Positions 20,792-23,890 of a stretch of 64,000 bases of DNA are shown here, in pieces (position 1 is the stretch's first letter; every line of letters starts with the position of its first letter). Source of the DNA: Nitrososphaeria archaeon (GTDB lineage: Archaea > Thermoproteota > Nitrososphaeria > Nitrososphaerales > JANXEG01); assembly GCA_029775915.1 (NCBI GenBank), contig JARVKA010000002.1:62001-126000 (forward strand), read 5' to 3'. The notes beneath the pieces were generated by a model. That model was given only the letters and a program-made list of their open reading frames with translations. It did not search any database and was not told the origin of the DNA. The translations under genes were made by a program, and so were the position numbers.

Positions 20792-20927
20792 CGCCGGGGG
20801 TGGGATTTGAACCCACGAGACTCTTACGAGTCACAGGCTATCGAGCCTCAACTCCAGGCATGAGCTTGTTTCAATCTGCCCCCTACCAGGCTAGGGAACC
20901 TTTGCCAAGGATTTTTTCCTTTCCGGC
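20792..20927 (-). tRNA. tRNA-Ser (tentatively UGA anticodon), with 22-nt acceptor-stem intron and a second probable intron; CCA not encoded
   Basis: Reverse strand: T-arm GTGGG-TTCAAAT-CCCAC, acceptor 3' CCCCGGC + discriminator G, long variable arm GACTC-GTAA-GAGTC, D-loop AGCCTGGTA; 5' acceptor GCCGG + GG interrupted by 20901..20922. Confidence 0.82.
20901..20922 (-). other. Predicted 22-nt BHB intron between acceptor-stem nt 5 and 6 of tRNA-Ser
   Basis: Exons GCCGG^...^GGTT restore a 7-bp acceptor stem with CCCCGGC; BHB: central helix TGCC/GGCA, bulges GG^A and AA^G, inner helix AAGGA/TCCTT, outer helix GGCTAGGGAA/TTCCCTAGCC. Confidence 0.75.
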
Positions 20928-21411
20928 AGCTTCCCTAGCCTATTAAAGTATTCTTAAAGTCATTCTTAAATACTTCCTCTTAAGTTTTACATCAATCTCC
21001 TAAAGCATTAATATATGGGGGCTTTAATATTCCACATCGATATAGCTATCATTATTGAGTTATAAAGCATTTTTTGCTATATTGCAAATTAACAAAATCT
21101 ATTGAGAATATTAAAATTGCGAGTCAGGAGAAAGTTGAAGCTCTTCCTGAAAAGGATATAAAATTGATGAAAAGTTAGAAGTAAAAAGAGCAAAAGGTTC
21201 AAGAATTTAAAAATATTCAAGAGAAAAATGAAGAATCAACGATACTTAATTACAATCTATCTTGATTGAAGCAAATAAGTTAAAAACCATTTTAAAAATT
21301 TTTAGAAAAAGTTCAAGAATTTAAAAAAGTTCAAACCCTTAAGGCTGTTAAAACAAAGGAGAAAAAGATTACGAAATATTAATAATGTAGTGTGGGTGAA
21401 TCAAAAGTAAT

Positions 21412-22906: not shown

Positions 22907-23890
22907 TCATTTCCACATACGTGGATACGTTCCAGCCCTCATTATCACCCTCCTTGTTAAAAATGCTATACCTTTATCCGCATTTAAAATCTCATCAGTA
23001 GACATAACCGCCTCACTAAGAGCGACTAATTCCCCCTTTAATGTGTGAATAGCTACTAAATCACCTTTCGATATATTCTTAGATAACTTTACAATACCTG
23101 GTATAGCAAGTTGAGCACCATGACAAATCGCGTCTACAGCTGAATCTCGAATAAACACTTTTTTCAAGTTTAAAACCACATATTCTACAGGTTTAATCAA
23201 TTTTCTCAAATATTCCTCATCACCTTTTTCTTTCCATGTTTGATAAGCATCAAGAAGTTCATGCAATCTAACTAAACCATCCTTTTCATCTATGTGGCTA
23301 ACTTTAGTACGCCTTAACTCTATCATCGTTGCACCAGGTCCCAAAACTTCCCCTATATCGTAAATCAATTTTCTCACATAAGTTCCAGCTTGACATACTA
23401 CTCTCAATAGAAGTAAGCGACCTATTTGCTCAACTATTTCTAAGTCATAAATCACGCGTGTTCTAATAGTTCTTTTAACAGAAGATCTTTGCGGGGGTCT
23501 TTGATAAATCTCACCAACGAATTCAGAAATTACTCTATTAAGCTTATCTCGATCTACAGGGCTATGTAAACGAGCTACAGCATAATACTCTTTAGGACCC
23601 ATTAAAAGAACTCCTAAGACTTTTGTAGCTTCACCTATACCGATTGGTAATAAACCAGTAACTGGTGGATCGAGTGTACCACTATGACCAGCTTTCTCAA
23701 CATTTAATATTCTCCGAACCCAAGCTACAACCTCATGACTTGTTGGTCCTGATGGTTTATCGAGGGGTATGAAACCATAATTTAAAAGTTGATTTATCGG
23801 CCGATTGTAAGGTTGAAAACCATAAGCTTCATTAGTTACATCATCACTAATTGTTATTAATTCTTCAGATTTGTTAATCATAACTTTCAC
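22907..23890 (-). CDS. cbf5: tRNA/rRNA pseudouridine synthase Cbf5
   Basis: GFIPLDKPSGPTSHEVVAWVRRIL...HSGTLDPPVTGLLPIGIGEATK; C-terminal PUA. Confidence 0.95.
   Translation of the reverse strand: MKVMINKSEELITISDDVTNEAYGFQPYNRPINQLLNYGFIPLDKPSGPTSHEVVAWVRRILNVEKAGHSGTLDPPVTGLLPIGIGEATKVLGVLLMGPKEYYAVARLHSPVDRDKLNRVISEFVGEIYQRPPQRSSVKRTIRTRVIYDLEIVEQIGRLLLLRVVCQAGTYVRKLIYDIGEVLGPGATMIELRRTKVSHIDEKDGLVRLHELLDAYQTWKEKGDEEYLRKLIKPVEYVVLNLKKVFIRDSAVDAICHGAQLAIPGIVKLSKNISKGDLVAIHTLKGELVALSEAVMSTDEILNADKGIAFLTRRVIMRAGTYPRMWK

Follow-up and report, generated by a model that had tools for sequence, protein, structure and literature searches.

In a window of 64,000 nucleotides (nt) from a Nitrososphaeria archaeon (assembly GCA_029775915.1, contig JARVKA010000002.1, positions 62,001 to 126,000 of the forward strand; all positions below are those of the window), we studied a gene for tRNA-Ser(GGA) on the minus strand at 20927-20792. 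Sequence comparisons and predicted folds make it very likely, as a whole explanation, that this gene is interrupted by three bulge-helix-bulge (BHB) introns, that the BHB of the first one, which lies inside the acceptor stem, depends on the 5′ leader, and that relatives of this archaeon solve the same problem with another kind of leader. All the exons stand in order within 136 nt. The features of the locus are the following, read along the minus strand.

20965-20970, minus strand: TTTAAG, a box-A-like element by consensus match only, in a block common to the sister species (AGGAAG..ATTTAAGA).
20931-20940, minus strand: 5′ leader element, GGCTAGGGAA, complementary to 20898-20889 in the 5′ half of the D arm.
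20923-20927, minus strand: exon 1, tRNA nucleotides 1-5, GCCGG.
20901-20922, minus strand: intron 1 at position 5/6, 22 nt, AAAGGAAAAAATCCTTGGCAAA, BHB with central helix TGCC/GGCA; GGTTCCC follows.
20876-20900, minus strand: exon 2, tRNA nucleotides 6-29, assigned from orthologs and in silico splicing.
20889-20898, minus strand: T8 to D loop, TTCCCTAGCC, the partner of the leader element.
20860-20875, minus strand: intron 2 at position 29/30, 16 nt, ATTGAAACAAGCTCAT, BHB read by hand with outer helix AGG/CCT, central helix GGGC/GCTC and inner helix TTG/CAA.
20852-20859, minus strand: exon 3, tRNA nucleotides 30-37, GCCTGGAG, with anticodon GGA, assigned by in silico splicing.
20840-20851, minus strand: intron 3 at the canonical position 37/38, 12 nt, TTGAGGCTCGAT, relaxed BHB read by hand.
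20792-20839, minus strand: exon 4, tRNA nucleotides 38-73, with discriminator G73.

Neither ARAGORN nor Rfam gave a tRNA match in the unspliced window. The initial annotation had described a tRNA-Ser with one 22-nt intron, the exact removal of which would restore the acceptor strand GCCGGGG. The Ser identity, the intron and the restored strand were all retained in our analysis (predicted junction GCCGGGGTT), but two further introns, at 29/30 and 37/38, had been missed. When the 22-nt insert alone was excised, 114 nt were left, in which ARAGORN found no tRNA. This exceeds the length of a type II tRNA, and the orthologs conserve the block GCCTGGAG, which was taken as an exon; the introns at 29/30 and 37/38 were therefore defined on its two sides. 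With all three introns excised, the product was 86 nt long and had a full cloverleaf, which ARAGORN identified as tRNA-Ser(GGA). Its 3′ end comprised the T arm GTGGG-TTCAAAT-CCCAC, the acceptor strand CCCCGGC (20799-20793) and G73 at 20792. The central helix of intron 2 was GGGC/GCCC in the sister species, compared with GGGC/GCTC in the window gene. Intron 3 had a weak BHB, and its position was deduced from the mature loop CTGGAGA. Heteromeric splicing endonucleases accept relaxed BHBs, and the genome encodes two EndA-type endonuclease paralogs together with an archaeal RNase P RNA. It seems highly probable from the sequence and the modelled products that the locus is a functional tRNA-Ser(GGA) gene, the transcript of which would carry three BHB introns.

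Several other assignments were tried and rejected. The anticodons UGA, CGA and GAG, placed by hand in the unspliced arm, left broken stems, and the orthologs pointed to GGA. A split (trans-spliced) tRNA was discarded because all the exons lie in order at one locus. A permuted tRNA was discarded because the parts run from 5′ to 3′ and the element upstream is a copy of the 5′ strand or resembles it.

The 22-nt intron between acceptor nucleotides 5 and 6 had been placed correctly by the initial annotation, and all the elements of its proposed BHB were present. They are two 3-nt bulges, a 4-bp central helix TGCC/GGCA, predicted cuts at GG^A and AA^G, and the inner helix AAGGA/TCCTT. Folding of 20945-20887 gave z = -5.88 relative to shuffled sequence. 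The same intron was common to the tRNA-Ser(GGA) genes of eight genomes in three families: two in f1 (the window's genome, G000, and its sister species, G001), four in f13 and two in f14. The named records among the carriers are Nitrososphaeria or Thaumarchaeota metagenome-assembled genomes, such as Candidatus Methylarchaceae HK01M (Nitrososphaerales in NCBI). Orthologs without the intron (L033-L037, L039, L042 and L053) have a contiguous GCCGGGG or GCCGGGA. The f13 genes combine a 3′ strand UCCCGGC with a 3′ exon that starts with GA; elsewhere the two are CCCCGGC and GG. The spliced strand of f13 would thus be GCCGGGA, and the 7:66 pair of the spliced product, G-C in some genomes and A-U in others, covaries as a 5/6 junction predicts. 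A pattern scan of the genome contigs returned 64 matches; five were Ser(GGA) genes with the intron, and 59 were not tRNA according to a check of the T arm.

These observations also bear on a reading without any acceptor intron, in which the tRNA would start inside the 22-nt insert with a poor acceptor stem, or the locus would be a pseudogene. With introns 2 and 3 excised but the insert left in place, ARAGORN did report a tRNA-Ser(GGA) that starts within it. However, such an acceptor stem would pair at only 4/7 positions by inspection, all the other stems are intact and the arrangement is conserved in the eight genomes. The orthologs and the 7:66 covariation favour the 5/6 junction. We regard this reading as scarcely credible.

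As the 5/6 intron splits the 5′ strand of the acceptor stem, the central helix of its BHB has to use the last leader nucleotide and tRNA nucleotides 1-3 on one side. A BHB so near the 5′ end of the tRNA would compete with the acceptor stem, and the leader could resolve this conflict. The complementarity between 20940-20931 and 20898-20889, already recognized in the initial annotation, amounts to 11 Watson-Crick base pairs in the window gene, or 12 pairs with one G-U, and leaves a single G bulge in the leader helix. In the sister species there are 10 Watson-Crick pairs, and the leader element AGGCTAGGG is the same in both. The leader helix reached a maximum of 8 bp in the 38 other tRNA genes examined in the window's genome. 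Among shuffled leaders, 1/2000 (window gene) and 2/2000 (sister species) attained the observed helix. When the whole precursor was folded with its leader, the probability of the BHB central helix was 0.86 in G000 and 0.83 in G001. It fell to 0.00 when the leader was removed, and to 0.05 (G000) and 0.00 (G001) when the leader element was complemented. Predicted formation of the BHB is thus lost without this element, in agreement with the earlier proposal that the leader builds the outer helix needed for splicing. The accompanying idea, that splicing precedes RNase P cleavage, would follow from such leader dependence. The leader complement recurs in relatives only in part: it occurs in both species of the genus and is thus confined to 2/8 genomes with the 5/6 intron, but it is absent from the other six, which carry a copy of the acceptor strand.

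In both species of the genus, the distance from the end of the TTTAAG block to the leader element is 24 to 27 nt (24 nt in the window gene), which is consistent with transcription starting at the element. A second TTTAAG lies at 20958-20953 on the minus strand. A de novo expectation-maximization search for a TATA motif in 37 upstream regions of this AT-rich genome revealed no informative motif. It could be supposed that the leader complementarity acts in the DNA only, as a promoter or an integration site, and has no role in the RNA. In line with this, the upstream gene neighbourhood in f13 differs between intron-bearing and intronless loci. The element is, however, complementary to the D arm of its own gene or a copy of its own acceptor strand, in a gene-specific manner, and predicted BHB formation depends on it. 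A purely DNA-level role seems very improbable.

The other six genomes with the 5/6 intron have no D-arm helix. In these genomes, a second GCCGGGG lies 15 to 21 nt upstream of G1, and it follows a TTTAAG or TTAAAA box by 24 to 27 nt. We then counted as a copy any leader 7-mer that pairs with its own 3′ acceptor strand at at least 6 positions, at least 5 of them Watson-Crick. In the same genomes of Nitrososphaerales, copies were present in 24/26 genes with a 5′-proximal intron and in 3/161 other tRNA genes (Fisher test, P = 8e-25, which is overstated, as the genomes are related and odd 5′ ends had drawn attention to some of the genes). Besides Ser(GGA), the copy-bearing genes were Leu(CAA) with an intron at 9/10 (both species of the window's genus), Gln with an intron at 10/11, Ser(UGA) with an intron at 8/9 (G066) and single cases in G027 and G081. 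The tRNA-Leu(CAA) gene of the window's genome lies outside the window (L176, G000:C2:329964-330120, minus strand). This gene and L177 in G001 have introns at 9/10, in the D loop and at 31/32, and their leader copy is GCGGGGG. The f13 orthologs of tRNA-Leu(CAA) have neither the 9/10 intron nor the leader copy.

Because the searches for tRNA-Gln were selected on the intron and not on the copy, the Gln test is free of this selection problem. Among 401 genomes of the order, we found 19 tRNA-Gln genes with the 10/11 intron, distributed over nine families, and every one had the copy (19/19). So did all four such genes from outside the order but within the same phylum (4/4). In total, the copy was present in 23/23 genes (L246 at G000:C3:903-1028, minus strand; L372-L393; L397), compared with 0/4 intronless Gln orthologs.

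The Gln genes speak to the question of which copy is the exon. The upstream copy might be the real exon 1, so that one long intron would run from there to the D arm and take in the second copy, with no leader and no RNase P step. The spacing from box A suits a start at the upstream copy, and the Ser(GGA) product is identical from either one. In Gln, however, nucleotides 8-10 (TGG) follow the downstream copy only; the upstream copy cannot supply the exon and must therefore be leader. Moreover, the inner helix adjoins only the downstream copy, and in the window's genus the element GCTAGGG would give an unpaired acceptor. This arrangement of exons is quite improbable.

Compared over 36 cases, copy and tRNA agree at positions 1-7, but at position 8 the agreement drops to chance (9/35). 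Therefore, the copy is exactly the acceptor strand. Copies deviated from the exon in 19 instances, 13 of which still pair with the 3′ strand: 12 by G-U and one by better Watson-Crick pairing (GGACCGA in G081, against a G-U in the exon). Gln of f14 shows a concerted change at 6:67 in all three of copy, exon and 3′ strand (AGCCCCG/CGGGGCT), accompanied by a change in the BHB helix (CCGT/GCGG for CGGT/GCCG).

It could still be argued that the copies are relics of intron gain, left when the tRNA 5′ end underwent a short tandem duplication at insertion, and have no present role. Copy and intron are present together and absent together, and several copies sit at the expected tRNA 5′ end relative to box A, as would suit such an origin. 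But the copy has been kept in nine families and in genomes outside the order, while the spacer between it and the tRNA (0-14 nt) has turned over in length and sequence. Functionless relics would also have to account for copies that stop exactly at nucleotide 7, for changes that mostly preserve pairing with the 3′ strand, and for the strong effect of the copy on predicted folding. We consider this reading unlikely.

With respect to folding, RNAfold paired the copy with the 3′ acceptor strand at probabilities of 0.83 to 1.00 in 19/21 precursors; the two exceptions were those of the window's genus. In 25 Gln and Leu precursors, the mean probability of the BHB central helix was 0.78 in the presence of the copy; it dropped to 0.04 when the leader was cut and to 0.29 when the copy was complemented. 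On these models, the copy is best read as a placeholder that would occupy the 3′ strand and leave the exon strand free for the BHB. The window gene departs from this pattern. Its leader has GCTAGGG in place of the relatives' GCCGGGG (5/7 identical), which pairs with the 3′ acceptor strand at 6/7 positions, one of them G-U, and not at 7/7; the predicted probability of this pairing was 0.0. Some leader copies in f13 already have 5 bp of pairing with the D arm. The window's element may be a degenerate, perhaps derived, acceptor copy that has switched to the D arm; we only infer this descent, since 5 matches in 7 positions are not unusual by chance.

We propose that the leader of the window gene blocks the D arm by pairing with its 5′ half and in this way builds the outer helix of the BHB. 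The heteromeric splicing endonuclease would cut at GG^A and AA^G, ligation of the exons would give GCCGGGG, and RNase P would then take off the leader. In the usual case among the relatives, the leader copy of the 5′ strand would hold the 3′ strand while the exon strand enters the BHB. What we can show are the sequences, their distribution, changes that preserve pairing and the predicted folds; that the leader is transcribed, in which order the cuts fall, that the exons are ligated and that the leader is displaced once splicing is over are steps that we infer. As a general rule for this archaeal group, it is probable, although less so than the account of the gene itself, that a leader decoy of exactly 7 nt holds the 3′ strand until splicing is done, that splicing, strand exchange and RNase P cleavage follow in this order, and that the window gene is a D-arm variant.

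Some observations weigh against these proposals. In three of the six Ser(GGA) relatives (two in f14 and one in f13), where the central helix is TGCC/GACA with one mismatch, folding failed to predict this helix despite the copy. In nearest-neighbour models the leader element stays paired once the introns are gone, which leaves the displacement step unexplained; strand exchange must then need tertiary contacts or proteins, or RNase P acts on an alternative fold. The gene counts come from kin genomes and are not independent, and some of the genes with 5′-proximal introns were found partly through odd 5′ ends. Two Leu genes with a 5′-proximal insertion, L200 (G027) and L203 (G014), have no leader copy. 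Finally, in both species of the genus G1 is also preceded, at a distance of about 25 nt, by TATA-like boxes; in G000 a second box of this kind would put the start at G1 and so yield no leader. Judged by sequence, a leaderless transcript is conceivable. In L200 and L203, the BHB could not be placed with confidence.

If the proposals are true, the 5′ leader has a folding role in tRNA splicing, as a decoy strand in cis. Such a decoy would allow introns inside the acceptor stem, set the order of splicing and RNase P cleavage, and account for introns at a seemingly forbidden place. The sequence rule, a leader 7-mer equal to the acceptor strand, could be used to flag archaeal tRNA genes that are hard to find and to locate their true 5′ ends.

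The surroundings of the tRNA-Ser(GGA) gene vary among the genomes. In families f2 and f4, an intronless tRNA-Ser(GGA) directly follows the end of cbf5 (L035, L036, L042 and L053). The gene lies about 2 kb (G000) and about 1.6 kb (G027) downstream of cmk-cbf5; in the window, cbf5 is at 22907-23890. This gene order suggests that tRNA-Ser(GGA) in G000 and G027 moved behind its own promoter. L238 (G066) shares its downstream synteny with L239 (G013) and its upstream synteny with L244 (G044), which implies a rearrangement breakpoint at or near the 5′ end of tRNA-Ser(GGA). Elsewhere in the window's genome, L170 (G000:C5:95307) is a 3′ fragment of tRNA-Ile without the 5′ half. Its T arm and acceptor are identical to those of L023, a pattern as from an integrated element.

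An intron in the 5′ acceptor strand is not without precedent: introns at 3/4 are reported in Thermoproteales (PMC4090602). To detect introns near the ends of a tRNA, tRNAscan-SE 2.0 includes 60 nt of flanking sequence in its scan (PMC8450103). As far as the accessible text of these two papers goes, the non-canonical BHB introns of Thermoproteales and Thaumarchaeota resemble those described here in their BHB motifs, in the presence of several introns per gene, in positions outside 37/38 and in a heteromeric endonuclease with two paralogs. They differ in that the intron here is at 5/6, with an outer helix built from leader and D arm, and in the leader copies of the acceptor strand, of which that text makes no mention. 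BHBs built with a leader are known from split tRNAs (PMC4033280). In those of Nanoarchaeum and Caldivirga (PMC4033280, PMC4090602), a leader outside the mature tRNA likewise pairs to form the BHB, whereas here a single cis transcript is involved, in which the partner of the leader is the D arm or 3′ acceptor strand of the same tRNA and not a second transcript. The permuted tRNAs of Thermofilum pendens (PMC3218864) were similarly revealed by a long distance from promoter to tRNA and an odd 5′ end, but the genes described here keep the normal order of parts and repeat only the acceptor strand of 7 nt. In the open-access literature, a scope that leaves the 2008 Thermoproteales survey by Sugahara et al. 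outside, our searches brought up no account of acceptor-strand copies in a leader, nor of a cis tRNA with a leader/D-arm helix. Multi-intron tRNAs, introns in the 5′ acceptor strand and the leader-built BHBs of split tRNAs are already known; the leader acceptor copies and the cis leader/D-arm helix appear to be new.
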